From assembly GCA_025766275.1 (NCBI GenBank), contig JAFKAC010000041.1, positions 186,001-250,000 on the forward strand: a stretch of DNA of 64,000 nt, written 5' to 3'. The stretch's first letter is position 1; every line of letters starts with the position of its first letter. Under the pieces are notes generated by a model. That model made no database searches. It had not been told where the DNA came from and was given only the letters and a program-made list of their open reading frames with translations. Positions 14,125 to 33,291 of the stretch are shown here, one piece after another. Made by a program: the position numbers and the translations under genes. The DNA is from Lactarius indigo. Taxonomy: Eukaryota; Basidiomycota; Agaricomycetes; Russulales; Russulaceae.

Positions 14125-16923
14125 CTAATCCGCCTGCGATTCCTTCCTCATTCGTTCTGCTTCATCCTCCATGCGTGCCAATATGTTAGCCCGTTCAAGA
14201 CAATAAAGACTGTCCTTTTTATCCTGAACCACCATCTCCCTTTCCAGCTGCAGCTGCCGTATCCGCCTATCCAGCTGGTCCTCCGCAAAGGCGAACTGCC
14301 TGAATCGGCGTAACTCCTGAATGAGAGTGACATCCCCAATGCGCATTAGTAGTAGGTCGGTGGGGTGTCGATCGCGGAGCATGAAATACTCCTCGTGTGG
14401 TATGAAGGCGCGATTGTTCTTCGGGAGATGTGGAGTGGCGTAAAGGGGTTTACCATAAAGAAAACCCGATCCAGGAGCTAGTCCGAGTACGAAGGGGTCT
14501 CCCCCTCGGATAACTTGTACGTGGGAGGCTTGTATCGTCGGTCCGTTGGGGAGTTTGATCGGGAACGGAATGTAATCGGGTCCTCGATTGACCCGGAACC
14601 CTTCAGGGACGATGGCCCTGGTTGCTGGGTCTCGCTCCCCCATTGGTGTATAACGAGCCGCTTGTGCCACGGCGACTCGTCCTCTGTGTAGAGGCCCCCC
14701 CGCTGTGTCGACGAGGTAGGGAGTGGCGGCTGGATCTTCAGCGTAGAATTCATGGTTAAGAAATGCGTGCCTGATGGGGTAGTGGTCTCCAAGCTCGTCT
14801 TCATCCTCATCTTCGTCCAGTACTCCTTCCGCTCCTTCATCATTCGGCGTCGGCAAGCGGCGATATGCAGTTGCTCCCGCTGCCACCGCGCCGCCGTTTC
14901 CTTCCACTCCTGTTCGTACTTCTGCATGGCGTTGGGCGGTTGCACCGCGTGGGACAGCTGCTTGAAGCTGGAAGAGTTCGTCCTCTGTGACGAAGGCTTC
15001 GGGCTCACCGGTGTTGGGGTTTGTGAGGGCATACATTGGCATCGGAGGTGTTGGTTGAGTTGCTGCCGGATCATTGTCGAGAGTTCCCTGTATGGGCAGA
15101 GGGAATCGTTGCAGTGTCTGGTGCAGTTCTTCACTAGTGATAGGGCCATCGTCCTCATGCTGCATGGGGGCACGGCCTCCAACTGCAACTCCAGCTGTTG
15201 CGGCGTTGTCGGTGGTGTCGGGGTTAACAAGCGTGGCGGAGGAGTCGTTGACAAGGGTAGAGAGGAGTGCGAGCTGGTCATTGCGTCGAGTAGAGGACAT
15301 AGAATGAACGGGAGATGGGGACTCATCATGACAGGATGCCATCCTTATATGCGTTTCTCTGTCGGGGTTTGAATGTTTGAAGTCCCGAACGGCTTCATCG
15401 GCAAACACGTCATCCTTATCTATCCACTGATTGTCTGAGTCTGGATAGCCCTTCCATTTGACAAGGTATTGGAGTCGACGTCTTCTGCCGAATCGCCGAG
15501 AGTCCAGAATCTTCTCAACTTCATACTCCTCTTCGTTATCGACCAAATCAGGTGGTGGGCGCTGATAATTTGGTCCGTGCGTGGGCGTTTCACGATAAGG
15601 TGTGAGAAGATCTATGTGGAAGACGTCATGGATGCTCCACTGCGTGGGAAGCTCAAGACGATAGTTGACAGGGGACATCACCTGGATGACCTTAAATGGT
15701 CCGTGTCGCTTGGCTGCCAGTTTTGCGGTTGGTTGGTGCGTGCGTAAGTGGCGTCCCTCTAGCCACACGAGATCTCCTATTTTGAACTTGGGCGTATCTT
15801 TGTGTTTGACCCATGACTTTTGTGCCCTGAGCATGCATGAGAACGCGCGCTGTCGCGCCTGTTTAAATTGGTCTAGCCTTAACGACACTTGAGGGATAGG
15901 GGAAGGTCTATCGGTCCAATCAGTGCGAGGGTTGAACCCTGATAAGAGAAAGAAAGGGGACTCCCGCGTGGTCTCATTAGGCCAGTTGTTGTGCGTGAAT
16001 TCTGCCATTGGTAGATAACGAACCCAGTCGTCTTGTCGTTCATTTACCCAGAAGCGGAGATATTGTTCCAGCCATTGATTTGTTCGTTCTGATTGGCCGT
16101 CGGTTCGGGGATGATAAGCGGTTGAGATGTTTTGGCTGATGCCAAGGATTTTGCATATCTCTTGTATGAACTTGGATGCGAAACGGGGGTCTCGATCACT
16201 GATGACACGCGAGGGGAGTCCGAATCGCGGGAAGACGTGAGAAACGTACAGAGCGGCTGTCCCTTCGGCTGTTATCTCTTCGTTGCACGGGATGAAGACG
16301 GCCGCTTTAGTACAATCGTGATCTGTCACTGTCAGGATAGAATTGTAACCACGAGAGATGGGAAGTTTGGTAATAAAGTCCACAGCGACGGTTTCGAATG
16401 GCAGGGCCTCCGGTTTAGGATATATGGGTTGTAAGGGTGCCCTGATGGGACGGAGGTTGACTTTGTGCCGCTGACATTCTGCACAACCTTTGACGTAGTC
16501 CATGACGTCATTTTTCATTTGTGGCCACCAATAATGTCGTTCTGTAAGTTGGAGTGTGCGTTTGATGCCAGGGTGACCGTACACAGGAGAGTCGTGATGG
16601 GCGGCAATAATAGTTCGTTTGTCGTGGATGCCGCCTGTGACTACTCGTCGTCCGTCCTTGTACCATGTCCCTTCAATGTCTTTTAGTTTGTGAGCGTCGA
16701 CCCATGGCTTTAACTTAGCTGTATCCTGTTCGTAAATGGGGTGTTCCGGAGTCATTTCTACTGGTAGGATTTCAGGTCTCCAGTGTGGGTGTCGCGGTTC
16801 TTCCAGTGTAGCGGCGCGTACGAAGACGCTCTCCGGTAATACCGTTATCCCTTCATTGTCGTTCTCCCCTTGGTCGTAATCCGGTCTTCGTGATAGCGCA
16901 TCAGCGCGTCCGTTGGAAGTGCC
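14125..16923 (-). pseudogene. pol: Element C pol, 3' portion (integrase, chromodomain, tail)
   Basis: This is the downstream part of a pol frame cut by element B; it continues from 26758-28772. The real sequence starts at the insertion point with SNGRADALSRRPDY. Earlier codons in the same frame belong to element B's LTR. It carries the integrase HHCC domain (ending CAECQRHK), core motifs DFITKLP, SDRDPRF and DGQSERTNQ, a chromodomain (YLVKWKGYP), then a tail of about 400 residues. The tail ends in a basic/acidic coiled-coil-like stretch that aligns with the tail of element A. The frame stays open to its stop at 14125. GTGCC at 16919-16923 is one half of the target duplication made by B. Confidence 0.88.
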
Positions 16924-17617
16924 TGTCACGAACCTATAAACCAGGTCGTGACTCAAGGCGCTTAGAGCCGGACCGGATCGGACCGGGCTTATGTCATCAA
17001 CTTCCTAAAGGGGAAATCCGAAATCGGAGTTTGAATTTCGCTCTCCGACGGTCACGTGATGTGTCACGTGACTACTCTGTCTTTCCAAGTCACATGCATA
17101 CCTGGACGTGTATCAATCAACGGTTGATTGTTTACCAATCAACGAAGATAATCAACCGAGTCACAAGGAACACGTGTCCTAATCACGGGTTCCGCAGCTA
17201 CTGCGGAATCACGCCATCATGGCGCAATATGGTGTCATTAACTGCGGCGCAGTCGTACCATGCTTATCCTTTATCCTGATTGGACAGTATTAATAACTTG
17301 TCTCTGGAATGTTCCAATCCGCAGTATTGTGCAGCACCCGTGGACAGGCCCTAAGCCTACCCTAAAGCTACGCACAGACCACCCCCTGTAGTATATAAGC
17401 TAGCGCAATCTATCGGACAGTCCCTCAGACTGTCCACTTGTGACATCCTCCCTCTCTTGCCTCTCAGCTCCTTCGAGTGCCCCACCTTGTGTGCGCCACT
17501 ATCCTCTTTGAGCCAAGAACGTCTCTTCCTTGACTCTCTCTCTCTCTCCGCTCCCGCCTCGCCCGCCGTCGTCTTCCATTGTATCCCTCGCTGTCGAGTG
17601 ACAGTGAGTTCTCCACA
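16924..17617 (+). repeat. 5' LTR of element B (694 bp) with promoter
   Basis: Begins TGTCACG and ends CTCCACA. U3 holds two CACGTG E-boxes close together (within 17052-17072), a TCCGCAG/CTGCGGA inverted repeat near 17212-17227, and TATATAAG at 17392-17399. The likely transcript start, AGACTGTCCA (17427-17436), lies 35 bp after the TATA box. GGACAGT just upstream forms an inverted repeat with ACTGTCC across the start. The last ATG in the LTR is at 17309, upstream of the predicted start. Confidence 0.92.
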
Positions 17618-18527
17618 CTTGGACAGTCTCTCCAATAGACTGACCTCGGGCTTCCCAGTGACTGACTACACCTACGAGTACGACTTCTCGCAGTACGGTC
17701 AGTGGGACGGAGACTCTGCCAGCTACCAGTCGGAGTTCGACAACCAAGGTAGCCCCCTTGACTTTTCCCGCGCCTCCCCTGTTCCCTCCACCTCTGCTGT
17801 CCGTCTTGACAGCCTCCGCTTCACCGCCCCCTACACCCCCGCCACTTTTGGTGGTAACGAGCCCCCCGCCCCTGTTGCCCTTGTTCGGGACGCAACCCCC
17901 GAACTAGTTTACCCCTACGCTCCGGCTGGAGAAGCCACCCCTCGTCCTTCCCCTCACCCCCTGTCCCCCAGCACCGCTCAGTTCTACGAAGAGGTCCTCG
18001 AGATCATCGACCTCAACGGGAACGTTGTCCCCTTGACCCCCGATCCCCGCGCCGAGTCTGCGCCTCCCCTCCGAGTCCCGACCCCCCGCCCCCCTGTTTC
18101 TCTTCGTGGCACTCCTTCGCCACCTCCTGTTCTTCCTCCGACTCCTCGTCGTTCTCCGTCTCCTGTTCCGATCCCCTCCCGCCTTGCGACCCCCGACTCG
18201 CCAATTAACTACGAGCGAGTAGCGGAACAAGGCCCCGCCTTCCCTCCGGCCCCTCACCCCGACCAGGAGAACCTTCCCCCCCTAGGCGCCACTGCCTACC
18301 AAGCCCCCCCTTGCCTCCTTCACCAAGGAGAACACCCCCACCAGTACATCGCCGTCGTCACCCCCCAAGGAGAGTCTTGGCGGCCCGCCTCCACCACACT
18401 CCGAGAACTGATCACCAAGGTTCCCCTCGCTACCTCCCTCGTCACCTTTCCCCCCGATCTTTCCTTCTGTCACCCCCTTTCGTCTCCTGCCCCCTCACGT
18501 CTACACCCTCTTCCCACGAATTGTTGA
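17457..18527 (+). CDS. Leader ORF1a of element B, no methionine codon
   Basis: An open frame of about 356 codons that starts inside the LTR and contains no ATG. I do not recognise the protein. It begins with a Ser/Leu-rich stretch, then an acidic Tyr-rich patch (TDYTYEYDFSQYGQWDGD), then a long Pro/Ser/Thr-rich region. Translation would need a non-AUG start; the left boundary is arbitrary. From 18412 to 18527 it overlaps ORF1b, which is in the +1 frame and looks like its natural continuation, so the last 30 or so codons of ORF1a may not be used. Confidence 0.45.
   Translation: MPLSSFECPTLCAPLSSLSQERLFLDSLSLSAPASPAVVFHCIPRCRVTVSSPHLDSLSNRLTSGFPVTDYTYEYDFSQYGQWDGDSASYQSEFDNQGSPLDFSRASPVPSTSAVRLDSLRFTAPYTPATFGGNEPPAPVALVRDATPELVYPYAPAGEATPRPSPHPLSPSTAQFYEEVLEIIDLNGNVVPLTPDPRAESAPPLRVPTPRPPVSLRGTPSPPPVLPPTPRRSPSPVPIPSRLATPDSPINYERVAEQGPAFPPAPHPDQENLPPLGATAYQAPPCLLHQGEHPHQYIAVVTPQGESWRPASTTLRELITKVPLATSLVTFPPDLSFCHPLSSPAPSRLHPLPTNC
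17587..17608 (+). promoter_or_regulatory. GAGT-tetraloop hairpin H0 (in LTR U5)
   Basis: A 9-bp stem (one G-T pair) encloses GAGT, with C-G closing the loop (CTGTC-GAGT-GACAG at the core). It is the first of four hairpins with the same loop in the AUG-free leader. Being in the LTR, it is also present near 26727-26748. The function is unknown; as RNA it would be a GAGU tetraloop. Confidence 0.55.
17620..17629 (+). other. Primer-binding site of element B (self-priming type)
   Basis: TGGACAGTCT begins 2 nt after the LTR end and is complementary over 10 nt to the predicted transcript 5' end AGACTGTCCA (17427-17436). The 2-nt offset is the same as in elements A and C. Confidence 0.65.
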
Positions 18528-18921
18528 CCCCGCTCAACACCCCGACTTTCCTCCCCTGTACATCTGTTCCAAGGCCATCTACGACCTCCCCTCCCCCGAC
18601 ACCCCTTTTGGGACTATCCGTTACGATTTTAGGGAAGGTCTGCGGCGCGCCTTTGCCCCCCTTGCTAACATCCACAGGGCTGGGTATATTGACTCTCTAG
18701 TAACCCTAGAGATCCAGGACTTTTTGGACGGAAGGATTGTGACCACTTACGGACACTTACGTTTCGCTTTCGACGGACAAATTTACGCTTACCACCAGGC
18801 CTACTTCTTTGAGGACTTGGTTCGTTCTGCCCCCCACCTTCTTGCTTACTGCCTTTCGCCTCGTATTCCTGCCGACCCTTTCAGTTTCATTTCCACTTTC
18901 CCCGATAACCAGCCACTTTAG
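18412..18921 (+). CDS. Leader ORF1b of element B, +1 frame continuation
   Basis: 169 codons, no ATG. Unlike the Pro-rich end of ORF1a, it looks like a folded protein, with mixed hydrophobic and charged segments such as HVYTLFPRIVDPAQHPDF and GQIYAYHQAYFFEDLV. C-rich runs at 18450-18456 and 18472-18476 lie in the overlap with ORF1a, where a +1 shift, a sequencing indel or a real deletion could join the two. The function is unknown. Confidence 0.45.
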   Translation, partial: SPRFPSLPPSSPFPPIFPSVTPFRLLPPHVYTLFPRIVDPAQHPDFPPLYICSKAIYDLPSPDTPFGTIRYDFREGLRRAFAPLANIHRAGYIDSLVTLEIQDFLDGRIVTTYGHLRFAFDGQIYAYHQAYFFEDLVRSAPHLLAYCLSPRIPADPFSFISTFPDNQPL

Positions 18922-18946
18922 ATAAGTGGTTATATATTTGCCTTGT

Positions 18947-18966
18947 CTTGAAACGAGTGTTTTAAG
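18947..18966 (+). promoter_or_regulatory. GAGT-tetraloop hairpin H1
   Basis: An 8-bp stem CTTGAAAC / GTTTTAAG (one G-T pair) around GAGT, 26 nt after the ORF1b stop. It is in tandem with H2 in the 107-nt gap between ORF1b and ORF2. Confidence 0.55.
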
Positions 18967-19008
18967 TGCAACGCAAAGTAAGTAAGTGTCTACTTATTCG
19001 GGTTTTGG

Positions 19009-19030
19009 ACTTAAATCGAGTGATTTAAGT
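19009..19030 (+). promoter_or_regulatory. GAGT-tetraloop hairpin H2
   Basis: A perfect 9-bp stem ACTTAAATC / GATTTAAGT around GAGT. The 3' arm contains the TAA (19026-19028) that sets the upstream limit of ORF2, so ORF2 opens exactly at the end of this hairpin. Confidence 0.6.
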
Positions 19031-20012
19031 GCCGCCTTCTACTCCATTTACCTTCAACTTAACTGAAGAACAAAGGCTCGCACGAGCCCGAGTTAACTTC
19101 GAGTCCCACAGGCAGCGGCAACTTGACCGCTATTACCCCGTCACTTCCACTTACGACCTCATTGATAACCCCCGTCTTGACTGTTGGACAGAACCCCCTA
19201 TCGCCTTACGTACCCTTATCGACCTCTTTGACTTTGGAGAAGTCATCCCCGAAAGGGTTTACCACGAATTTATTGACGATCTTTCTGAAGTCGTCAAGGC
19301 TGCCGACGAGCAACTCCTTTATTGGCATCTTTCAAACTCCGTCTCTGCCACCAACCATCCAACAGACCAACTCCTAGTGTGGGCCAAAAGCGACTATCTT
19401 TGGTTTGTCCACGTTCCCCCTCGTCGTGACCACTACATCCGGCAACTTGAAGACGGCTTCTCTCTTCACTTTGTCGACCGACTCCGTCTCACATATCAGG
19501 AAATACAGATTTCCTTCCAAGAAATCCGAGTGGTCATTCACCCCGACTCCGCCCCCCGTCTAGTCATCTCCGATAGTTCGGAGTTCACTTACTCCTTCAC
19601 CACCTCTGTGTGGGAAACTACCTTGTCCAACCCTGACCGAAACCTTGTCAACCCTAGCATCTGGCACTATCCTCCTTCGACCTCTGACGACCCCGAATTA
19701 GTGTCAATTCTCAACGCCCGAGAAACTTTCCGGACTCCACCCCTGCTGCGCCGAATTACAGATCGGCTACCCCCTAGTTCCCCTGAAACTGAAGACGAAT
19801 CTTCAGACTCCGACATCTCCCTACATAACGGAGATACCAACCAGCCGCCTAGCCCAAACGACGGTTGGGGACCAACTCTGACCTCAGGCCCCTGTTGGTG
19901 CTCTCAAGAAGTCTGCACCTGCGGTTATCGTCCTGACACCCCTCCGACACCCCCCAACGTAGTGTTGTGGTCCCCTGGAGTTAACTATCTACCTTATAGA
20001 GAAAAAGACTAG
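19029..20012 (+). CDS. Leader ORF2 of element B, 327 codons, no methionine codon
   Basis: An open frame immediately after hairpin H2 with no ATG in its length. The predicted protein looks globular: a charged N-terminus (EEQRLARARVNF), alternating hydrophobic/charged segments (RTLIDLFDFGEVIPERVYHEF; LVWAKSDYLWFVHVPP), then an acidic Ser/Asp region and a short Cys cluster (CWCSQEVCTC) near the end. I recognise no family. Translation would need a non-AUG start (GTG at 19029 is the first codon) or a hairpin-directed mechanism. The frame is the same as that of ORF1a and ORF3. Confidence 0.5.
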   Translation: MPPSTPFTFNLTEEQRLARARVNFESHRQRQLDRYYPVTSTYDLIDNPRLDCWTEPPIALRTLIDLFDFGEVIPERVYHEFIDDLSEVVKAADEQLLYWHLSNSVSATNHPTDQLLVWAKSDYLWFVHVPPRRDHYIRQLEDGFSLHFVDRLRLTYQEIQISFQEIRVVIHPDSAPRLVISDSSEFTYSFTTSVWETTLSNPDRNLVNPSIWHYPPSTSDDPELVSILNARETFRTPPLLRRITDRLPPSSPETEDESSDSDISLHNGDTNQPPSPNDGWGPTLTSGPCWCSQEVCTCGYRPDTPPTPPNVVLWSPGVNYLPYREKD

Positions 20013-20021
20013 ATAGTATAG

Positions 20022-20744
20022 ATTGCCGAGATAAATTTTACGAGTGTAAAATTTGAAAAATTCCCAAGCCAAATCCTGGATCCAATTCATTGGGCAATTA
20101 ACCTGGCATCCTCACACGTCGCCCAAAGAAGAACTCATCGTCGCTTCCAAGTGGACGATCGGCCCATAGCCTCTACCCCTAGCACCCCTGTCACCCCAAG
20201 AAGGGCCCCCAGAGCTCGTCGAGCTACCAACACCCAGATCCCCCTTCCGAGTATTAACCAAGCCGGTCCAAGTGAACCGGCGTACCCCAGTATCCAAGCA
20301 ACTCCGACTGCAAGGCAGCATTCCACGAGCAGCGACGAAGCTCAGTATCTCGAGACCCAACCCCGAGAAATCCATTGTCATCTTCCCGAGGCTATCCTAG
20401 TAACCAAGAGCCTACCAACCCGAACCCCCCGAGAACTCGACGTGTTCAGAAGACACTGTTCTCTGTTGTACCAAAACCGGCACAATCTCGAAACCCTGTA
20501 CTTTTCCCAGCCGCTTACGCGCATAAGCGAAGTTTCGACGAGCCCCTTGTATTTCCAAGACTTCTTGTGGAGAAGTAAAACAACCCTGACCCACTTTGGT
20601 ATTTGGGAAGAATACCATTGGATCCGTCGTTCACAAAGACCCCATCGTCCGGATAGAGCTATCCTCCTCCCGGCGTACAAAGTCTACTACCCCTGGAACC
20701 TGGACAGTTGGACTGTCACCCGTCTCACCAGAAGAGGTGAATGA
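20022..20744 (+). CDS. Leader ORF3 of element B, no methionine codon, overlaps gag start
   Basis: An open frame of about 240 codons after the tandem TAG codons at 20010 and 20019. It contains no ATG. The N-terminal part is basic and Pro/Ser-rich (RRTHRRFQVDD, TPRRAPRARRATN); the C-terminal part is rich in aromatic residues (YFQDFLWRSKTTLTHFGIWEEYHW). I recognise no family. Its TGA (20742-20744) overlaps the gag ATG (20741-20743) as ATGA, an arrangement known from other systems to allow termination-reinitiation. Confidence 0.5.
   Translation: MAEINFTSVKFEKFPSQILDPIHWAINLASSHVAQRRTHRRFQVDDRPIASTPSTPVTPRRAPRARRATNTQIPLPSINQAGPSEPAYPSIQATPTARQHSTSSDEAQYLETQPREIHCHLPEAILVTKSLPTRTPRELDVFRRHCSLLYQNRHNLETLYFSQPLTRISEVSTSPLYFQDFLWRSKTTLTHFGIWEEYHWIRRSQRPHRPDRAILLPAYKVYYPWNLDSWTVTRLTRRGE
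20033..20054 (+). promoter_or_regulatory. GAGT-tetraloop hairpin H3
   Basis: A perfect 9-bp stem AAATTTTAC / GTAAAATTT around GAGT, extendable by one G-T pair. It lies 21 nt after the ORF2 stop, near the start of ORF3. Confidence 0.6.
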
Positions 20745-22291
20745 ACACGCAACGAACCCTCACAGACGAAGAAAAAGCCCACATCCCAGTATACTTCTTC
20801 GACCCCTATTTTTCCCTTACCGACAACCTTTACTACGCTAAGTGGAAAGAAGAAGATATCTCCAGCCCCACAGGAAAACACCCGTGGACAATAGTCGCTA
20901 CCCAGCACCAAATCGTTTTTCAGGACCTAAAAGAAGCCTTTCCTGGTATCGACAAAGTCGAAGACCTAAGTTACAACTCCCTACACGCCACTTTCAAAGG
21001 AAAGAACGTCCGTTGGAACTTCGTAAACGAACAGTGGGTCTACCTAAACAACAAGCCAGTCCACTTCAACACACCTAGCGAATCCGACGATTCAACAAGT
21101 GACACAGAGGAAGTGTCACAAATCCTAGACACTACTACCAAAAAACTCTCTGGTCTACTATCCCAAGTAACCTCCCGACCCTCGACACCCCAGATTTCCC
21201 CTAGTACCCCCGGTCCTAGCCGTTTCCCTACAACGGCTCCACCACAGCGACTCCCGTCACCACCCCTGACTGTTCGAGCCTCTTCCTCCGCACCCCCTGT
21301 ATCCGTTCCTCCTGTACCCACTGCAATGGCAGCCCCTGCACCCGCAAAAATTTTAGGAGCAGCGCCAGAGCCCTTTAACGGCAAACCCGACCATGCAGAG
21401 GCCTTTTGGAACAACCTGGCCAATTATTTCCATCTAAACCAGGATATCTTTAACTCCGACGACAAAAAGGTATCCACTGCCCTTACCTATTTCAAGGTTG
21501 GGACCCCAGCAGGAGAATGGGCTCAAGATAGGCAAAAGAAAGCCTTGAACCCAACCGGAGGGGCGGCAGTATCCTTTGGCACCTGGGCACAGTTCAAAAC
21601 CGACTTTAATGCACACTTCGTTCCTGGTCACACTGCCATGGAATCCACAAACAAGATGTATTCTCTGAAAATGGGAACCCGACCCTTTAACGAGTGGTTC
21701 CAAGAATGGTCAACCCATGCTACACGAAGTGGTGCAAATGAACAAACCAAGATGTATGCCTTCCGACAAGCTATTCCAACAGCTCTGAATATGAAGCTGC
21801 TCGGCATATCCCCCATCCCTACCACCTTCGACACCCTTGTTGAGAAAGCAAGAGAATTCGATCGCGCATATCGAATTTACGCTGGTCACGCCATTAACCA
21901 GTTTAACAAGACCCATAAGCCCACCACAGGACGAGCCGTCCTAGCGGAGGACGATAGCGTTAATGTCAACGCTTCCTCATCTCGTACTACCAAACCAAGG
22001 AACAAACTTACCAAGGAAGAGCGAGAGTATCGCTTCAAAAATAAACTCTGCCTATACTGTGGCAAGCCAGGCCATGTACTTAAAGAATGTCACGCCAAGA
22101 CGGCAGCCATGAAGGCCAAAGGAGGCCAATCCAACAACAACGCTAGGGCGCACGGCGCCTTTGTTGATGAACCGAGTCAGGAGGAAGCACCTGCTGACCA
22201 CCCAGCAAACATTGGAGCGATATATCGAGAGATACTCCCTTTTGACCCGGACGCACGTCCGCGTTCGGTGCCTATTAATGAGGATTTTTAG
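20741..22291 (+). CDS. gag: Element B gag, 516 aa
   Basis: The start is the first ATG of the predicted genomic RNA. After a Ser/Thr/Pro-rich N-terminal third there is a capsid-like segment (PEPFNGKPDHAEAFWNNL ... FKTDFNAHFVPG) typical of Ty3/gypsy gag. A basic linker follows, then one CCHC zinc knuckle (CLYCGKPGHVLKEC, about 437-450) for RNA binding, and a short acidic C-terminus. It ends GATTTTTAG. Pol follows in the -1 frame, overlapping by 10 nt. Confidence 0.9.
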   Translation: MNTQRTLTDEEKAHIPVYFFDPYFSLTDNLYYAKWKEEDISSPTGKHPWTIVATQHQIVFQDLKEAFPGIDKVEDLSYNSLHATFKGKNVRWNFVNEQWVYLNNKPVHFNTPSESDDSTSDTEEVSQILDTTTKKLSGLLSQVTSRPSTPQISPSTPGPSRFPTTAPPQRLPSPPLTVRASSSAPPVSVPPVPTAMAAPAPAKILGAAPEPFNGKPDHAEAFWNNLANYFHLNQDIFNSDDKKVSTALTYFKVGTPAGEWAQDRQKKALNPTGGAAVSFGTWAQFKTDFNAHFVPGHTAMESTNKMYSLKMGTRPFNEWFQEWSTHATRSGANEQTKMYAFRQAIPTALNMKLLGISPIPTTFDTLVEKAREFDRAYRIYAGHAINQFNKTHKPTTGRAVLAEDDSVNVNASSSRTTKPRNKLTKEEREYRFKNKLCLYCGKPGHVLKECHAKTAAMKAKGGQSNNNARAHGAFVDEPSQEEAPADHPANIGAIYREILPFDPDARPRSVPINEDF

Positions 22292-25200
22292 GCTCTTCCA
22301 TCGTAGCACTGTCGATTGGAAGTATTCGTGCCAGTAGCGTTGTACACGGCCTTTCCCTACTAGAGACGCTCGGAGCCGAGCATGTACCTGCAGAAACAAT
22401 TCGGAATAGGAGAGCTCCTTCAATTGTTCTCAGAGTTACACTAGTAGGAAAGAAGTCTGGCAAAGAAATCAGTGCCCGTGCCCTGTTGGACAGCGGCGCG
22501 GAGGGCATCATCGTGGATGATGGGTTTGCACGTGCAAACAACCTAACAATGAGGACACTAATTAAACCCTTACCAGTTAGAAACGTGGATGGGTCTCCCA
22601 ACAAGACGGGATCTGTTAGGTATACTACGATCCAGAAGCTACGGATCAGAACTTCTGATAATGACTACCACGACGAAACCGTGGAACTCTATGCAACTAC
22701 TCTAGGGGAGCACGATATAATCCTAGGAACAGACTGGCTCCAAGCACATAACCCTGAAATCGACTGGCACCAACCAAAAATAGCCTTCACACGATGCCCA
22801 CGAACCTGTACCCTGTCCTCCTCAGCAGTCGTCATTTCTTCGAAGACACCACAAACACGACGCACGACTATTAACGTCCTGGAACTCGACCCAAACCAAG
22901 AAACCTGTCTTCCCGCAGGGGACGAAATTGAACCCCCGGAACCCACCTTTATCCAAGATGCCTGCGAACCCTGGCTGTGGATCCACAGCTTTAGCAAGTA
23001 TGACCACCTTGCCATCCGAGCAAAGATAACTACAAGCACCAAGATAGCAGCACGCACTGCACCTAAGCCTTCCACCGACCATATTCCGAGTCACTTCCAA
23101 CGATATACTAAAGTATTCAGTGAAATCGCGTCTCACCGACTACCCCAACATCAGTCTTGGGATCACGCAATTGATCTCAAACCAGGAGCCACTATGAAGA
23201 ATTGTGGCATTTATCGACTTACGCCGAAGGAATCCGATGCCCTCAAGGAGTACATCTCGGAACACCTAAAGAAAGGTTACATTCGACCATCTAAGTCACC
23301 CATGGCCTCCCCTTTCTTCTTTGTCGATAAAAAGGATGGTAAACTCCGACCTGTACAAGACTACCGTGCCCTCAACGACATAACCATTAAGAACGCAGCC
23401 CCCCTTCCCCTTATCCCTGAACTTATCGACAAACTCCATGACGCGCGCTACTTTACCAAGTTAGATATTCGTTGGGGTTACAACAATATCCGCATCCGCG
23501 AAGGCGATGAATACAAGGCAGCCTTCAAAACGTCCTTAGGACTCTTCGAGCCGACTGTAATGACCTTTGGTCTCTGCAACGCCCCTGCCACTTTCCAAAC
23601 ATTCATGAACAAAATCTTCGAGTCTTTGATTGACGGTGGACACGTAGTGGTCTACCTCGATGACATCTTGATCTTCACCGAGGATATCTCCTCACTCACA
23701 GCGTTGACACACGACGTGCTCCAACGGCTAGAACGCCACGACCTCTACCTGAAACCTGAAAAATGTACATTTGCACAAACCTCCGTCGAATACCTCGGAA
23801 TCATCATTTCCGATGGCCAAGTCTCTATGGATCCTGCGAAGGTTGCAGGTATTACTCAATGGCCCACCCCACGCACCGTCAAACAAGTCCAAGCCTTCCT
23901 AGGCTTTTGCAATTTCTATCGACGCTTCATTAAAGACTACTCCACTATCGCCCGCCCCTTGTTTGACCTAACCAAGAAAGACGTCCCCTTTTCTTGGGGT
24001 ACCGCGGCGGAAAGCGCTTTCCGCACCCTGATTAAATGCTTCACCGAAGCTCCTGTCCTTGCCCTACCCGACCACTCCAAACCTTTCCGCCTCATCACCG
24101 ACGCAAGTGATTTCGCTACCGGTGCCATCCTTGAGCAACCCGATGCTTTGCAACGATGGCACCCCGTTGCCTTCCTTTCCAAATCCCTCCTTCCTGCTGA
24201 ACGTCACTACGAGATCTGCGACAAGGAACTTCTGGCCATCATCCATGCCTTGCATGCTTTCCGCCACTACTTGGAGGGACGGGATGACGTTACTGAGATC
24301 TGGTCCGACCATGGTAACCTTGTCTATTTTACCACAAAGCAGAAGCTTTCCCGCCGTCAGGCCCGTTGGGCCTTGTTCCTCTCTCGCTTCCAGTTCATCA
24401 TCATCCACAAACCCGGTACACAGAATAAGTCTGATGCACTGTCTCGGCGTCCAGATCATAAAAAGGGGATAGCGGATGAAGATGAAAAGCGAGTACTCCT
24501 GGATACCAAATATTTTTCCGTCAACGCAGTACAAAGAACTGCAGTAACCATTCAAGGAGATACCACCCTCCGGCAGCGAATCAAAAACACCCAGACCTAT
24601 GACAAGGAAGTCAGCATGGCCCTCGAATCCCTTCTAAAAAACGGCCCTCGTTCCCTAGCTAAGGGTCTAGAAGAGTGGAACTTAGAAGATGGCCTTATCT
24701 TGTTCAAAGGACAAGTCTACGTTCCCAAAGACGACAACTTACGAAGAGACATTGCTAAAGCATACCACGACCACATCGCCACAGGACACCCTGGGCGTTG
24801 GAAAACCTATGAGTTAATATCCCGAGACTTCTGGTGGCCAGGCATATCAACCTTTGTTAAAACCTATGTTGACGGTTGCGCCATATGCCAAGCCACTAAA
24901 ATCAAACCACGTACCCAAGTACCCCTACAACCCAACACAATACCTGAAGAAATATGGGGAACCATCACAATGGACTTCATCACCGACCTCCCCCTATCCC
25001 ACAATTACGATTCGTTATTCGTAGTGGTTGATCGACTCAGCAAAGCTATAGTCATTTCCCCTTGCAACAAAACCATCACTGCAGACGAAACAGCCCAACT
25101 CTACCTGGAAAACGTCTGGAGACGTACCGGCCTACCCCGACAAGTTATTTCCGACAGAGGCCCTCAGTTTGCATCAAAAGTAATGCAAGAAATCTGGAAC

Positions 25201-26052
25201 AAGTTGGGAGTTAAATCCACCCTATCCACAGCTTTCCATCCACAAACAGATGGAGAAACCGAACGCGTAAACCAAGAACTCGAACAGTACCTCCGTGTCT
25301 TCTGTAACTTCCAACAAGACAACTGGGTAGACCTAATCCCGTTCATGGAATTCGCACACAACGCACGACAGCATAGTGCAACTCACAAGTCACCCTTTGA
25401 AGTGTGGTATGGGTACAATCCGGAGTTCATTCCCCCCATCCACTTCAATAGCAAGATACCCGCAGCCGAGGAAAGACTAGATGCGTTGAACCGAATCCGC
25501 TCCGAAGTCACTGCGGCCCTCAAGGTTGCTGCAGAAGTAATGAGAAATTCCAAGTCAACCACGACCTCTCACAAGTTCAACGAAGGCGATCTAGTCTGGC
25601 TGGAAGGAACTAATATCCACACTACCCACCCCAAAGCTAAACTCGCTCCCCGACGCCACGGTCCTTTTAAAGTCCTATCTTCCTGGGGAGTTAACTGCAA
25701 ACTCCAACTCCCAAAAACATGGCGAATCCACCCAGTCTTCCATAATTCCCTGATCTCTCCGTACAAAGAAAGCACCACGCATGGCCCTAACTTCACCCGA
25801 CCGCCCCCCGAAATTGTCCAAGGGGAAGACGAACACTATGAAGTCGAAAGGGTCCTGCAATCAAAGATATCGCCCAACAAGAAAGGCGTACTTTACTTGA
25901 TCAAATGGAAGGGGTATCCCGACTCCGAAAATTCCTGGCTTCCTGCCTCCCAAATGACCCACGCCCGAGATCTTGTCCAACGGTTCCACAAGGACAACCC
26001 CTCCGCCCCTAAACCAAAGTCAACTAGTGCTAGTGGAATAGCACGACGTTAA
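22282..26052 (+). CDS. pol: Element B pol polyprotein, about 1256 codons
   Basis: Open from just after the in-frame TAA TGA at 22276-22281. No ATG precedes the protease motif (LLDSGAEG, near 22486), so pol is probably made as a gag-pol fusion by -1 frameshifting at the end of gag (GATTTTTAG). No canonical slippery heptamer is in the correct phase. Domains: aspartic protease; RT (YLDDIL, near 457); RNase H (DASDFATGA near 607, ELLAIIHAL); integrase zinc domain (H-H ... CAICQATK, about 829-872); integrase core motifs DFITDLP, SDRGPQF and DGETERVNQ; chromodomain (YEVERVL ... YLIKWKGYP, about 1186-1227). It lacks the long tail seen in A and C. Confidence 0.92.
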   Translation, partial: GFLGSSIVALSIGSIRASSVVHGLSLLETLGAEHVPAETIRNRRAPSIVLRVTLVGKKSGKEISARALLDSGAEGIIVDDGFARANNLTMRTLIKPLPVRNVDGSPNKTGSVRYTTIQKLRIRTSDNDYHDETVELYATTLGEHDIILGTDWLQAHNPEIDWHQPKIAFTRCPRTCTLSSSAVVISSKTPQTRRTTINVLELDPNQETCLPAGDEIEPPEPTFIQDACEPWLWIHSFSKYDHLAIRAKITTSTKIAARTAPKPSTDHIPSHFQRYTKVFSEIASHRLPQHQSWDHAIDLKPGATMKNCGIYRLTPKESDALKEYISEHLKKGYIRPSKSPMASPFFFVDKKDGKLRPVQDYRALNDITIKNAAPLPLIPELIDKLHDARYFTKLDIRWGYNNIRIREGDEYKAAFKTSLGLFEPTVMTFGLCNAPATFQTFMNKIFESLIDGGHVVVYLDDILIFTEDISSLTALTHDVLQRLERHDLYLKPEKCTFAQTSVEYLGIIISDGQVSMDPAKVAGITQWPTPRTVKQVQAFLGFCNFYRRFIKDYSTIARPLFDLTKKDVPFSWGTAAESAFRTLIKCFTEAPVLALPDHSKPFRLITDASDFATGAILEQPDALQRWHPVAFLSKSLLPAERHYEICDKELLAIIHALHAFRHYLEGRDDVTEIWSDHGNLVYFTTKQKLSRRQARWALFLSRFQFIIIHKPGTQNKSDALSRRPDHKKGIADEDEKRVLLDTKYFSVNAVQRTAVTIQGDTTLRQRIKNTQTYDKEVSMALESLLKNGPRSLAKGLEEWNLEDGLILFKGQVYVPKDDNLRRDIAKAYHDHIATGHPGRWKTYELISRDFWWPGISTFVKTYVDGCAICQATKIKPRTQVPLQPNTIPEEIWGTITMDFITDLPLSHNYDSLFVVVDRLSKAIVISPCNKTITADETAQLYLENVWRRTGLPRQVISDRGPQFASKVMQEIWNKLGVKSTLSTAFHPQTDGETERVNQELEQYLRVFCNFQQDNWVDLIPFMEFAHNARQHSATHKSPFEVWYGYNPEFIPPIHFNSKIPAAEERLDALNRIRSEVTAALKVAAEVMRNSKSTTTSHKFNEGDLVWLEGTNIHTTHPKAKLAPRRHGPFKVLSSWGVNCKLQLPKTWRIHPVFHNSLISPYKESTTHGPNFTRPPPEIVQGEDEHYEVERVLQSKISPNKKGVLYLIKWKGYPDSENSWLPASQMTHARDLVQRFHKDNPSAPKPKSTSASGIARR

Positions 26053-26063: not shown

Positions 26064-26757
26064 TGTCACGAACCTATAAACCAGGTCGTGACTCAAGGCG
26101 CTTAGAGCCGGACCGGATCGGACCGGGCTTATGTCATCAACTTCCTAAAGGGGAAATCCGAAATCGGAGTTTGAATTTCGCTCTCCGACGGTCACGTGAT
26201 GTGTCACGTGACTACTCTGTCTTTCCAAGTCACATGCATACCTGGACGTGTATCAATCAACGGTTGATTGTTTACCAATCAACGAAGATAATCAACCGAG
26301 TCACAAGGAACACGTGTCCTAATCACGGGTTCCGCAGCTACTGCGGAATCACGCCATCATGGCGCAATATGGTGTCATTAACTGCGGCGCAGTCGTACCA
26401 TGCTTATCCTTTATCCTGATTGGACAGTATTAATAACTTGTCTCTGGAATGTTCCAATCCGCAGTATTGTGCAGCACCCGTGGACAGGCCCTAAGCCTAC
26501 CCTAAAGCTACGCACAGACCACCCCCTGTAGTATATAAGCTAGCGCAATCTATCGGACAGTCCCTCAGACTGTCCACTTGTGACATCCTCCCTCTCTTGC
26601 CTCTCAGCTCCTTCGAGTGCCCCACCTTGCGTGCGCCACTATCCTCTTTGAGCCAAGAACGTCTCTTCCTTGACTCTCTCTCTCTCTCCGCTCCCGCCTC
26701 GCCCGCCGTCGTCTTCCATTGTATCCCTCGCTGTCGAGTGACAGTGAGTTCTCCACA
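26064..26757 (+). repeat. 3' LTR of element B (694 bp)
   Basis: Same length as 16924-17617 and differs at one position (CG here, TG in the 5' copy, near 26630). It is followed by the GTGCC duplication. Confidence 0.95.
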
Positions 26758-28772
26758 GTGCCTTTGATGTGGTGAATCTCAAAATCATATTCCGAGAGTT
26801 CAAGCACTTCCCTGGCTACTCGCCTACTGATCTTCTGTGGCGATTTCCAGTATTGTAAGTTAAGGTGGTCAGAGAATACTTTGATTTTGTGGGGAGAGCC
26901 CGCTAAAAGGGATCTCCAATGGCGAAAGGCCTTGACGATTGCTAGGAGTTCAAGGTCGTAGATGTCGTAGTTTCGTTCAGCTTCATTAAGGGTGGACGAG
27001 TAGTAGCCGATGGGGTGACGCTTGCCATCTGCCTTGCGCTGAAGGAGGACAGCTCCAGTTGCGAATCCCGACACGTCAACTTCTAGTTCAAACTGTTGGG
27101 TAAGATCTGGATGTGCGAGAACGGGCTCGCTGGTAACAAGGGTCTTGAGCTCTTGGAACGCCTTCTCCTCGTCATCTCCCCAGCGCCATTCGGCGTTTTT
27201 GCGTGTAAGTTTGTTAAGAGGTCGCGCTTTGGTTGCGAATCCTCGTATAAAAGGTCGGTAAAAATTGCAAAAACCAAGGAAAGAGCGGATGTCCTTGACC
27301 TTGGTTGGCGTAGGCCAATCTTTAATACCCGAAATTTTGACGGGGTCCATGCGTGTCACCCCCTTTTCAAGGATTACCCCCAGGTAATCCATACGCGGGG
27401 AGTGGAAGAGGCATTTCTCGAGTTTGTAGTAAAGATCGTGCTCCACGGACACGCGGAGGACGTCTTTTACTGCTTCGATATGGTCGTTTAGTGAGTGCTT
27501 CAGTCCCGTAGCGATACTGATGTCGTCCATGTATACTCGGATAACCGTTCCACGGGCTTCGTGTTTGGCTATAATATCCCTGAATATGAAGTTCATCATA
27601 GTCTGGAACGTTGCGGGGGAATTGGTTAGGCCGAAAAACATCACCGTTGGTTCGAATAATCCGTAGCGTGTCTTGAACGCCGCTTTTTCTTCGTCTCCTT
27701 CTTTAATGCGTACGTTGTTATACCCCCACCTGACGTCGAGTTTGGTGTAGATGTGGGCGTTGCTGAGGTCTGTAATTAGGTCGGATATGAGAGGGAGAGG
27801 ATACTGATTGCGGATAGTGACGGCGTTTATTTTTCGATAGTCTTGGACGGGTCGCAACTTCCCATCTTTCTTTTTGATAAAGAAGAAGGACGACGCGTAT
27901 GGTGATTTAGAGGGTCGTATATACCCCTTTTTGAGTTGTTCATCGATCCATTCGCGTAGTTTCTTATCTTCCTCTTGTGTCATAGGGTATATTTTGCAGT
28001 CGATTGCATCGGTGGTGCCTGGTTTGAATTCGATAGCATGATCCCAGGGCCTGCTGGGTGGAAACCTGTCCGATGCCTCTTCACTGAAAAGGCGTTCGAA
28101 TTCGCGATACTCGGGGGGTAACTCAGCTTTAGTGACATATTGTTGAGCAGCGATAGCGAGATCAGTGGCAGTGGCCCTGATTCGACACCCCTCTTCAAAT
28201 TGCTGTCTCTGTTCGTCCGTGATGACGCAAGAATGTACTATCTCGTAGTCATCATGTTGGACTGTGGCGGCTGCCACTACTGGTGTTGTCTTGATGTAGG
28301 GATTAGTTGAACGGATGATGATGGGGAGCATATCTTCGTGAATGGCAGCTTGCGACCACTTGATATGCGGATCATAAATGGCGAGCCAGGGATATCCTAG
28401 CACGATGTCTTCATTTCCAATGTCGGTAATGAGGAAGCGTATCTCCTTGTGGATTCCTTTAGTTTGAACGTCGACATCGGTATAATGAGTGATACTCCCC
28501 GACTTATTTTCAGTATTGTCGATATTCCATATCTTTTTTGGGACGTCGAGTAGCTTGGTCCCAAGCCCCATTCTTTTTGCGAAGGAGGGCTTCATGAAGC
28601 AATGTGTTGCTCCCGAGTCGACTAGTGCTCGTATGTCGGCCATTGCGTAACTGGTGCGAATCGAAACTGGAACTCTCATAGAACGATAGCGAGTCATGAT
28701 TACACTGTTACAATTAACTGCCCTCACCCAGGCCGATGGGTTTAGGCGTCCTGAAAATCCTCCCTTTTCCAT
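26758..28772 (-). pseudogene. pol: Element C pol, 5' portion (protease, RT, RNase H)
   Basis: Starts at ATG 28772, overlapping the end of gag as in element A. It holds the protease (LVDSGATHCF), the reverse transcriptase (YMDDIS) and RNase H (VDVSGFATGA; ELLAIVKAFRHW). It is cut right after HHIKGT by element B; the gene continues at 16923. The apparent open frame beyond the cut belongs to B's LTR. Confidence 0.9.
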
Positions 28773-30204
28773 AATTGTTGGAGGATGATGTCTTTTACAT
28801 CGTCCGTTTCTCCTGCAACCCCGTTAAGCCAATCGCTGGCGTGCTGTTGAGGGGGCACTTCTTGGACCGCCCTGGTTGCGACGTCCGGTTCTTGTTGATG
28901 GTAGTCGGTGTCGATATACCGACTGGTCGATGCTTGGGGTTGATATCCCCCTCGTGGTTCTCTACAATCACGGGCCATGTGTCCGTCCTTTCTGCAGTTA
29001 TAACATGTGACTGGCCTTTGGTTATTGCGCCCTCCTCCTCTCTGTAGAAATCTCCTCTCGGTCGATATGGGGGACGAGGGGTGAGTATGTCTTCAGCCCC
29101 TGCAAGTCGCCCTCGAATTCGGTCTGCCGAGGTATCCATGGCGTTTGGATCTCGTAAATTTCTCGGCTGCCATGAACTTCTAGGTGGTCCCTGCCATTGC
29201 CGTTGTTGTCGTTGCCTTCCTTGTCCTTGTCCAGGGGGAACTCCCTTGTTCAACACCGCTTTAAGGTGAAGGTACTGTTGTTGACGAGTGGTGGCTGCTT
29301 CTTTCCATTCACGGTAGTTGCGGGGGTTGTCGAGGGTGTAGACCTTTTCATATAGGTCTTTTGGTAATCCGCTCGCGAATAAGTCGAGCGTTTGCGGATC
29401 ATCGAGCCTGTACTGAGCGCGGCGTATTAACTGTTCGAATTGGGTGCAATACTCATCTAGGTTGCCCCCAATCATCTTGACTCCTTTCTTGAGCTCATAT
29501 TGAGCTTGTTCTTGTTCCATCGTATTGCGGAAGCGCTGCATGAAGCTACGCGTGACTTCGTTCCATAATTCTTCGCTAGTTCGGGGTATGCCGGCTTGTA
29601 TCTGGCCGTTAAGCCAGGTGAGCATTGCCAGTACCCATTCGCTAACGTTAACGCCCTTGATGTAGGATAGAAAGAGTAGGGCTCGTCGATAGGGTGTGGC
29701 CATTATGCCTTCGTCTGCGTTCATGCCCCAATAGACATGCCACTGAGTGAGAAACGCTTCAACTTTGGCGCGTTCTCCGTCGAATACTGTGGGTGCCTCG
29801 CCAGCTAGCTTGTTACTGAGAGGGGGAATAATAGGACCTGCACCTGGTAGCCCTCCTCCCGGGGGTCCTCCTCCTGGTGGTCCTCCTCCTGGTGGTCCTC
29901 CTGGGAACCCTCCCGGGAATCCTCCGAATCCTGGTCCTCTTGATGGGGGTCCCCCATCTCCTCCTCTTCCGGGCAGATCACCAGGAGGCCCGCCTCCTCC
30001 GCTGGGAGGATCGGCTACGTCAGGTCCAATGGCGCGATGGATTGCTACATCGTCGTCAGTCATTCGATGGCCAGTATATGGGTTGATAGGAGCTAGATTA
30101 GCTCGCGATTCTTCTGCGATACGTCTTTGTTCTTCTAGGGCAATCTGATCTCTTGCCTCGCTGGTGAGGTATACTTCCTCTTGAGTGATGGTAGTAGTTG
30201 CCAT
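28742..30204 (-). pseudogene. gag: Element C gag from its first AUG, frameshifted before the zinc knuckle
   Basis: The first AUG of the predicted transcript is at 30204. The frame runs through a Gly/Pro-rich spacer (GGFPGG and GGGPPGG repeats) and the capsid-like region (FDGERAKVEAFLTQWHVYWG ...). The CCHC knuckle (CYNCRKDGHMARDC) is encoded in another frame, ending at 28742. The switch falls near 29,045. In element A the two parts are in one frame, so this is most likely a one-base indel. Confidence 0.82.
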
Positions 30205-30807
30205 TGCAACTGCTGGGCTATGAATGTGAATTACTTCTGGTTCGGGTTGGTGAATGGTGAGGGACTCAGTTTGTTGTATGATGTGGTCGCCGATGGCTCC
30301 CAGACTAGCTTCTTCCGCTGGCGTCGTTCCTCTGCTCGGTGATTGACTTTCGGAGGCTTCCTCTCCGCTAATTCCTTCGTCTGTGTGTTCTTGTGCTTGT
30401 CCGTCAATAGGACCGTAATCGGCGCGGCTATTGAGCTCTCGCGCGTCGATGTCGCAGTTGTAGTTTCTTCCCGCTGGTCGTACTATGTCCCAACGATGGT
30501 CTATGGGGTTCCAAGTAACCTCAACCCAGCAGAGATGTTCGAAATTAAACTCAACGGGTCGGAAACGGTTAGGACCGTTGAATTCTACAAAGTATCCGGT
30601 ATCTTCTCCTCTCTCTCTCCACTGAGCTGCTCCTAAGAATCTTGTTGGTACGTTGCGATCTCCTCGTTGTTCAATATGATAGGGACGGAAGGACGTCCAC
30701 TGATCTCTGGTCGAGTACGCCACGATGAGGATCTTGGTCTTAATGTTACGCTCCACCGGCGTCAGTCCGACTTGGACTCGAAGAAGGCGTAATCGACTTA
30801 GCGAAGG
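30205..30807 (-). CDS. Element C AUG-free leader ORF, in frame with gag
   Basis: An open frame from just after a TAA inside the LTR (30808-30810) running uninterrupted into gag. It has no ATG on the sense strand from the predicted transcript start (30987) to 30204. The protein sequence matches element A's leader strongly (RFRPVEFNF; HLCWVEVTWNPID; CDIDAREL; GPIDGQ), while the DNA differs at many third positions. That pattern points to selection on a translated protein, i.e. an N-terminally extended gag begun at a non-AUG codon. The exact start is not determinable here. Confidence 0.65.
30731..30741 (-). other. Primer-binding site of element C (self-priming type)
   Basis: Minus-strand AAGACCAAGAT, 2 nt from the LTR, exactly complementary to ATCTTGGTCTT at 30987-30977 in the LTR, the likely transcript 5' end. 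Confidence 0.7.
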
Positions 30808-31253
30808 TTAGGCGAATGGGGATCACGTGTCAACCCAACACAAGCTGAACAGGGGCGCACTGGCACACGCTGCAACTAAGGATGAAGAAGTACTATCCCT
30901 TGGTATGGATAGAAGTGGAAGCACACTTAGTCAAGGACTAAGGTAGACAAGAGACGAGTCGAATGGTGGATTGAAGAAGACCAAGATGGGGACTCTTGGT
31001 CTTCCGAGTCGACTACTTATACAAATACGCGCGGGCTTTAAAGCGCCGCTAGAACAATAGTTAACCAATAGCGTAACTAGCTCGAACCCTAGTACAGCTA
31101 TCCTAGGAATGAGTCATACACAAGCCACAATCACATGTGAACTACCGTGCTGACTGATGCGATGTAAGAATCCATGACTAATACTGATACCGGACCGTAG
31201 TCATAACCGGTCATGAGTCGTGTGTAATGAGTCATTGAGTCCGTACCATAACA
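30744..31253 (-). repeat. 5' LTR of element C (510 bp) with promoter
   Basis: Minus-strand TATAAGTA (31021-31014) is followed 34 bp later by ATCTTGGTCTT (30987-30977). An 11-bp inverted copy (GAAGACCAAGA) sits just upstream. The outer flank is GTCAT (31254-31258), the target duplication. Confidence 0.92.
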
Positions 31254-31795: not shown

Positions 31796-32089
31796 TGGGC
31801 AGGGCTTGCCCGGCTCGTGAGTACGCGTGAGTGGGCGAGAACGGTTTCTGTCTGGCTGAGCCAGGAATGAGCTGGCCAAAAATGGAAATATATTTGCTCA
31901 ATATGCATGTCCGCTGTCCGCTGAGGCTCTCAGAAGAAAACTGGGTAGGTTCTCTTTCTTGGTGTCTCCTCAGACGACCTTGCACAAACTCTGACAAAAA
32001 ATAAAATAAAACATATGTATTGAAGTAGACTACATAGTACAGAGAATATATTTTATGTCTATCTACTGCCCGGGGAATCGAAACTGCCT

Positions 32090-32880
32090 CGCCATCGTCG
32101 TCGCTGTCGTCGTCATGGTCGCCGCAGTCGTTGTGGTGGTCGCAGTCGTGGTCGTGGTCGCTGCAGTGGTGGTGGTGGTGGTCGCGGTCGTCATTGCGGT
32201 CGCTGCGGTTGTGGTGGTGGCCGCCGTGGTGGTCGCGGTCGCTGCAGTGGTGGTGGTGGTGGTCGCGGTCGTCGTCACGGTCGTCACGGTGGTGGTGGTG
32301 GTCGCAATGGTGGTCACGGTTGTGGTGGTGGTGGTGGTGGTGGTGGTCGTCGTCGTCGCGGTTGCCGCGGTCGTGGTGGTGGTCGCCGTGGTGGTCGCGG
32401 TCACTGCAGTGGTGGTGGTGGTGGTCGTCATCGTCATTGCGGTCGCTGCGGTTGTGGTGGTGGCCGCCATGGTGGTCGCGGTCGCTGCAGTGGTGGTGGT
32501 GGTGGTCGCGGTCGTCGTCGCGGTCATCACGGTGGTGGTGGTGGTCGCAATGGTGGTCACGGTTGTGGTGGTGGTGGTGGTGGTGGTCGCGGTCGTCGTC
32601 GCAGTTGCTGCGGTCGTGGTGGTGGTCGCCGTGGTGGTCGCAGTCACTGCAGTGGTGGTGGTGGTGGTCACGGTCGTCGTCGCGGTCGTCGCGGTCGTGG
32701 TGGTGGTCGCGATGGTGGTCGCGGTCATGGTGGTGGTGGTGGTGGCCGCGGTCATGGTCGCAGTCGCTGTCGTGGTGGTCGTCGCCGTGGTCGTCACGGT
32801 CGCCGCGGTGGTGGTCGTGGTTGCTGCTTTGGTCATGGTTGCGGTGGTGGTCGTGGTGATGGTGGTCACGGTTGTCGCAC
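32090..32880. repeat. GC-rich tandem repeat, about 80-bp units in 240-bp higher order
   Basis: Built from GTGGTGGTGGTCGCGG-like words. Subunits of about 80 bp end in CTGCAGTGG, and a higher-order period near 240 bp is visible (32167, 32408 and 32649 start equivalent blocks). Because the unit lacks stops, several frames stay open on both strands (Val-rich, Trp-rich, Thr/Ala-rich, and a His/Asp-rich one on the minus strand). I do not call any of these a gene. Confidence 0.8.
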
Positions 32881-33291
32881 CACGGGGCTGGCGCCATCGC
32901 GCCGTGGCTGCCTTGGGGGCTTGGGGGTTCGGGGCGACGTTGTCGCAGGGCAGGTCTTGCCGCTGCCTTGTTACCTGCGAGGGTGCGCGTGTGGGCGAGT
33001 CAGTGAGCCACGAAAAAAAAGAAATACATACCTGATAGCCAAGAGAGAGGGTGGGTCGCAGACCCGTGCCAGTGGTTCGTGTTCGTGCTGGTGAGCACGA
33101 ACGCGAGTTACGCAATGCAATGGCAAGGAATTTTCGCAGCCACCGCATGTACGACGCGCATTCCCACGCTCTCGTCTCGGCTCCTGCTGTCTGCTACAGT
33201 CTCATCTCTCCTCATCTCTGCCCGATCTCAGCTGATCTACTTCAACTTGCTTCTTTTATTTTTTTTTGTACTACTCTTGGCTACATCTACT

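Follow-up and report, generated by a model that had tools for sequence, protein, structure and literature searches.

The plant Ogre elements carry an extra open reading frame (ORF), ORF1, upstream of gag, and in Rous sarcoma virus the start codon of the spliced env mRNA comes from an upstream exon, the gag AUG being carried over. Another plant element, Retrosat2, has an extra ORF0 upstream of gag; the part of its description available to us does not mention AUG avoidance (PMC3485330). The closest precedent for the locus described here is rice tungro bacilliform virus (RTBV): according to the portion of the source consulted, its upstream ORFs I and II are free of AUG and are crossed by leaky scanning over about 900 nucleotides (nt), with an AUU start (PMC5902531).

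The locus lies in a window of 64,000 nt, the whole stretch analysed, from Lactarius indigo (assembly GCA_025766275.1, contig JAFKAC010000041.1, positions 186,001 to 250,000 of the forward strand); all positions below are those of the window. It is a Ty3/gypsy chromovirus in which the region from the 5' long terminal repeat (LTR) to gag holds three accessory genes, named A, C and D. Our reading of the sequence, to which we give a probability of about 0.8, is that these genes form an AUG-free leader in which splicing would make the AUG of A and of C, D would start at a CUG, and ribosomes would scan on to gag. No description of this element family, or of such AUG-free leaders in Ty3/gypsy elements, was found in the literature searched, most subscription journals being outside its coverage. 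A previous interpretation of the window, the sequence-only reading, had supposed such leaders undescribed in Ty3/gypsy elements: nothing in that literature contradicts it, but pararetroviruses are known to have upstream ORFs free of AUG, as the same portion of the RTBV source relates (PMC5902531).

Absence of ATG and coding constraint upstream of gag

The sequence-only reading reported no ATG, and about 30 CAT, between positions 17312 and 20740. Both counts are borne out, with 0 ATG and 30 CAT in 3429 nt; the dinucleotides of the stretch itself lead one to expect 20.7 ATG. The gap between the ATGs at 17309 and 20741 is the longest ATG-free run on the plus strand of the window, where the runner-up measures 585 nt; the longest on the minus strand measures 913 nt. 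Assuming that the RNA begins at 17427, as it probably does, about 3314 nt of it would be free of AUG.

Of 313 candidates in the 90.3-Mb genome, 40 were scored, and counts out of 40 refer to the window together with 39 genomic copies (family 1). The independent sample is smaller than 40, since four pairs of copies hardly differ from each other; the median pairwise divergence of the leader is 7.6%. Between 17427 and gag, ATG is absent from 19 sequences, occurs once in 9, twice in 5, and 3 to 14 times in 7. The absence is shared by the window and 18 of the 39 other copies, and is not private to the window; the remaining 21 sequences carry at least one ATG.

Could the absence be due to chance, base composition, decay, or an artefact of a single copy? 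The stretch is 36% C, and those 21 sequences can be cited in favor of this explanation. However, 20.7 ATG are expected with dinucleotides kept, and the trait is common to many copies and to a second family. Decayed copies, for their part, are rich in ATG: 14 in the family-1 copy L041, 24 and about 50 in the family-2 loci L053 and L054. Together with the shuffles below, these numbers led us to reject the explanation, whose chance of being right is negligible. They also agree with the earlier statement that decay is not involved. That statement called the element very young; its LTRs differ at 1 of 694 sites.

The loss of AUG from the leader is selected. When the A, C and D ORFs of two families are shuffled synonymously, 1.1 to 4.6 out-of-frame ATG are expected per ORF, and all six ORFs have none; the shares of shuffles with no ATG are 0.11, 0.006, 0.029, 0.012, 0.003 and 0.29. 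The gag control has 12 ATG, versus 12.8 expected. Substitutions among copies point the same way: ACG became ATG in 32 of 1709 cases in the leader (1.9%), versus 45 of 463 in gag (9.7%). Other C-to-T routes in the leader give 219/2699 for CCG to CTG, 135/1929 for TCG to TTG and 19/412 for GCG to GTG. There is no change from ATA to ATG in 662 cases, and GTG became ATG in 4 of 1217, versus 129 of 2146 for GTC to ATC. The substitution counts, the copies and the second family all support the earlier proposal that selection keeps AUG off the genomic RNA, leaving that of gag as the first for a scanning ribosome.

A model in which gag comes from a separate RNA with a short leader, made by an internal promoter or by splicing from a donor in U5 to an acceptor before gag, would make the absence of AUG unrelated to scanning. 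A YAG does stand a few bases 5' of the gag ATG (CACCAG in the window, CTGCAG in the family-2 locus L049), but the avoidance continues through all the ORFs as far as the gag AUG, a region in which no selection is expected under this model; we consider it very unlikely.

The sequence-only reading took the stretch for a plain long leader, and here it fails: A, C and D are under purifying selection. When the window is aligned with the 39 other scored copies, their diversity follows a codon rhythm in the frame of A from about 17662, with a shift in the window copy near 18412-18460, and then to the stop at 18921; the rhythm is found again in 19030-20012 (C) and from about 20040 to 20744 (D), before that of the gag frame. 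The mean ratio of nonsynonymous to synonymous substitution rates (dN/dS) is 0.178 for the front of A, 0.050 for its rear, 0.070 for C, 0.067 for D and 0.120 for gag; four wrong-frame controls (one in A, two in C, one in D) give 1.3 to 2.3. Copy L041 was dropped from the dN/dS and substitution counts. Read as spliced, A is open over its 420 codons in 32 of the 40 sequences and C is open in 33; D is open from its CUG to within 7 codons of its usual end in 38. None of the three proteins has an internal Met, and the alignment of C shows a CxC...CxC motif at the C-terminus.

None of the three proteins matched Pfam or, in a sequence search, solved structures; the leader had no match in Rfam, and no relative of C or D was confirmed in the viral contigs searched. 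Synonymous divergence is 0.19-0.47 in the leader genes (17661-20735) versus 0.66 in gag (20744-22010), which perhaps reflects RNA constraint or recombination.

A second family exists in the same genome. Searching that genome with the C protein yielded 126 matches, including a group at about 50-57% identity, from which eight loci were fetched; identities are based on the first four. They are 51-53% identical to the window in C, 74-76% in D and 92-95% in gag. Between the start site and gag, L048, L049 and L056 have no ATG, L055 has one and L051 two, and L050 has foreign sequence in front, the rest being free of ATG. The donor of A was found in 6 of the 8 loci, and both donor and acceptor of C in 7. 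By their sequence, undecayed copies of family 2 keep the same plan.

The contrast between C, about 52% identical, and gag, 92-95% identical (L048-L051 against window positions 17659-22012), has two alternative explanations: leader modules may have been exchanged, or C and the front of A may have evolved fast. Within family 1, copy L025 is apparently chimeric at the boundary of C and D.

Predicted introns, the probable start of D and the proposed mechanism

Splicing of two predicted introns (Table 1; a slash marks a splice junction) best accounts for the missing starts of A and C. Excision of either one would join an A to a TG, and thus form an in-frame AUG for A or for C. In intron A, the donor, the CTGAC branch motif and the AG/TG acceptor are each kept in 40 of 40 sequences; so are the donor A/GTAAGT and the acceptor AG/TG of intron C, which has an alternative donor at 18982, likewise preceded by A. 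Both have the form of spliceosomal introns, short, running from GT to AG, with a branch point of the CTNA type (CTGAC and CTTAAAT), and their lengths of 55 and 52 nt compare with 53, 58 and 60 nt for three actin introns of the host.

D probably starts at CUG 20076. Its homology to relatives begins there, and this is the first CTG in the RNA with A at -3 and G at +4, a context kept in 39 of 39 scored sequences; the position alone is weak evidence, because about two such CTG are expected per whole leader from base composition. The corresponding site in the family-2 loci L048-L051 reads AACCTGGAACC. Deletions of 8 or 13 nt directly upstream of the CUG occur in five copies, two of them (L043 and L044) near-identical, and D stays open. 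No splice-type junction with a counterpart across the copies compared was found ahead of D: the window has an in-frame AG/TG at 20150, but L048, L049 and L051 lack it. A splice-made AUG for D was thus rejected, and the CUG preferred.

Distant relatives are nearly free of Met. The homologues listed, from Lactarius genomes and metagenomes, number 24 for C, 7 for D and at least 90 for A, the best 8000 candidates having been scored in the search with A. The 18 metagenomic, non-Lactarius homologues of C have 4 Met past residue 1 in 5234 residues, and the 7 homologues of D have none in 1641. Among the matches listed for A, 47 of 89 have no Met, and the total is 124 in 37118 residues, 41 of them from one fused gene model. 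The 50 JGI entries among these matches begin with V (43), L (6) or M (1), and 34 begin with VS; such a V, encoded by GTG, would be the AG/TG junction read without splicing. Lactarius gene models place a Met at the junctions, with SSDM at A (13 models) and NATM at C (7), and three intron-blind proteins run through the primer-binding site (PBS), as TWTV, toward the start of A.

It is also conceivable that all three proteins are made from an unspliced polycistronic RNA, with GUG starts for A and C and a CUG for D, or by entry of the internal ribosome entry site (IRES) kind, AUG being avoided for leaky scanning as in badnaviruses. A GTG is present at the DNA start of A and C, there are RNA folds between the ORFs, and the consulted portion of the RTBV source provides a precedent, namely initiation at AUU together with ORFs that lack AUG (PMC5902531). 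This would leave unexplained the conservation of donor, branch point and acceptor at host intron length, the fact that the GTG of A and C begins with the G of an AG acceptor, and the junctions of the Lactarius models. GUG is, moreover, a poor start codon in eukaryotes, and we regard this explanation as unlikely. Splice-made starts would account together for the absence of AUG, the Met-free proteins, and the A that precedes the GTG of A and C.

Assuming such starts, we infer the following mechanism. AUG has been purged from A, C and D in every frame, and on the unspliced genomic RNA a scanning ribosome would meet its first AUG at gag, yielding gag (and pol), with some D made en route from CUG 20076. 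Removal of intron A would give an mRNA for A that has lost the PBS, and would be unusable as a template for reverse transcription because the PBS sits within that intron. Removal of intron C alone would give an mRNA for C that keeps the PBS.

Four hairpins of the leader share a C-GAGU-G loop (Table 1). The window has no other C-GAGU-G hairpin with a stem of at least 6 base pairs (bp), except the 3' LTR copy of hairpin 1, and the leader has no other C-G-closed tetraloop with such a stem. In family 2, the sites of hairpins 1 to 3 are kept, the third being bulged, and one pair of hairpin 3 is changed on both sides in L049; hairpin 4 was not found there. It is a guess that these hairpins may control splicing. 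A tentative conjecture, which we hold possible but would not bet on, extends this to a large clade of mushroom Ty3 elements that use splicing as a start-codon switch, with three overlooked genes free of AUG in the genomic RNA and a removable PBS, and in which a protein of the element or of the host, bound to the GAGU hairpins, would set the shares of genome and Gag RNA and of A and C mRNA.

Several points weigh against the spliced, scanned leader. At least one ATG stands between 17427 and gag in more than half of the family-1 sequences (21/40), and the frame of the window's own ORF A is lost somewhere from about 18412 to 18460. This defect is one of the window copy, since A is uninterrupted in 32 of the 40 sequences of family 1 and the region is a single ORF in L049 and L051; on the same grounds we rejected both programmed frameshifting and a distinct gene B. 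If the first donor is used, a C occupies position -3 of the C AUG. A DNA copy of the spliced C RNA was not found (22 pattern matches, versus 75 for the reversed-pattern control), although that RNA would keep the PBS, and the search for copies of RNA lacking intron A gave 0 matches; spliced retrocopies were thus dropped as a proof. Taken alone, the shuffle test falls short of significance for A of L010 (0.11) or for D of family 2 (0.29), and the gag changes from ATA to ATG (3/333) and from GTG to ATG (2/200) are too few to serve as controls. Some V starts lie elsewhere than at the beginning of A (P0047, for example), and the Lactarius gene models may be ab initio. Hairpins are kept less strictly than splice sites: the stem of hairpin 1 is down to 5 bp in 10 of the 39 other copies, and that of hairpin 3 in L015, L016 and L024; L033 and L041 lack hairpin 2, and L025, L027, L034, L041 and L046 lack hairpin 4. 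Finally, the reading would require ribosomes to scan over 3.3 kb.

If the reading is right, an LTR element can hold extra genes before gag without blocking gag, their starts existing only after splicing. This would explain three conserved families that have no Pfam entry, the GTG starts in databases, and the fused models. It also puts two ideas within reach of a direct test: that eukaryotic ribosomes can scan more than 3 kb, and that splicing can switch an RNA from genome to message. The literature searched contained no case of a start codon put together by splicing ahead of AUG-free ORFs.

Features of the element and its surroundings

Table 1. Positions of the element's features in the window. 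TSD, target-site duplication; RT, reverse transcriptase.
Feature	Position	Strand	Remarks
5' LTR (TG...CA)	16924-17617	+	694 nt, 1 mismatch with 3' LTR
3' LTR	26064-26757	+	LTR comparison
TSD GTGCC, 5 bp	16919-16923 and 26758-26762		directly flanking the LTRs
TATA box TATATAAG	17392-17399	+	kept in 40/40; putative promoter role
Putative RNA 5' end AGACTGTCCA	17427-17436	+	complementary to PBS; kept in 40/40
PBS TGGACAGTCT	17620-17629	+	within predicted intron A; kept in 40/40
Hairpin 1, 9-bp stem	17587-17608	+	covers intron A donor
Predicted intron A, 55 nt	17604-17658	+	GACA/GTGAGT...CTGAC (17640-17644)...CCCAG/TGAC
ORF A	17659-18921	+	420 codons in 32/40 sequences; codon-wise diversity, dN/dS
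Hairpin 2, 8-bp stem	18947-18966	+	ahead of intron C donor
Predicted intron C, 52 nt	18978-19029	+	A/GTAAGT...CTTAAAT...TTTAAG/TGCC
Hairpin 3, 9-bp stem	19009-19030	+	covers intron C acceptor
ORF C	19030-20012	+	327 codons counting the predicted splice-made AUG; dN/dS, 24 homologues
Hairpin 4, 10-bp stem	20032-20055	+	ahead of D CUG
ORF D	20076-20744	+	222 codons from the probable CUG start, no Met; stop UGA; dN/dS, homology start
gag	20741-22291	+	Retrotrans_gag, E 4.6e-08; first AUG of unspliced RNA
pol: protease, RT, RNase H, integrase, chromodomain	22282-26052	+	domain search

The order protease-RT-RNase H-integrase-chromodomain between the LTRs, with a short TSD, is that of chromoviruses. 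The putative RNA 5' end is complementary over 10 of 10 nt to the PBS adjacent to the LTR, as is the case for elements that prime themselves. The stop of D overlaps the ATG of gag at 20741-20744 (ATGA); in the family-2 loci L048 and L049, a few bases separate them.

The insertion splits an older Ty3 element of another family, on the minus strand at 26604-31115. The Gag-frame ORF of the latter (28795-30756) contains no Met in its first 183 codons or so, up to an ATG near 30202; this part falls in a run of 913 nt free of ATG. The window also holds four DUF6535 ORFs (39603-41663, 43259-45430, 55254-57488 and 59637-61781) and a GC-rich tandem repeat at about 32016-32900, with steps of 9 and 12 nt.

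Comparison with described elements and viruses

The element shares gag and the protease-RT-RNase H-integrase-chromodomain series with Ty3/gypsy chromoviruses. Like Tf1 of fission yeast it would be self-priming, the RNA 5' end being complementary to the PBS; unlike the element, with its accessory genes and predicted intron A, Tf1 is not known to have accessory genes before gag or an intron that holds the PBS. With env of Rous sarcoma virus it would share a start supplied by splicing, but its AUG does not exist before splicing. With Retrosat2, as far as the consulted part of its description goes, and with Ogre, it shares an additional protein of unknown function encoded ahead of gag, after the LTR; those elements have one extra ORF only.

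Badnaviruses and tungroviruses are not known to have LTRs or integrase, and encode a polyprotein of movement protein, coat protein and RT; the element has both LTRs and integrase, which sets it outside the Caulimoviridae. Within the portion of the RTBV source consulted, the likeness is one of layout: RTBV and the badnaviruses of the Caulimoviridae are reverse-transcribing, as the element is, and have upstream ORFs without internal AUG and a non-AUG start, for which the element would use the CUG of D. The scale differs, with about 900 nt and two ORFs in RTBV, and about 3.3 kb, three ORFs, predicted splice-made starts for A and C, LTRs and integrase in the element. The element may thus work partly like the Caulimoviridae without being one of them.

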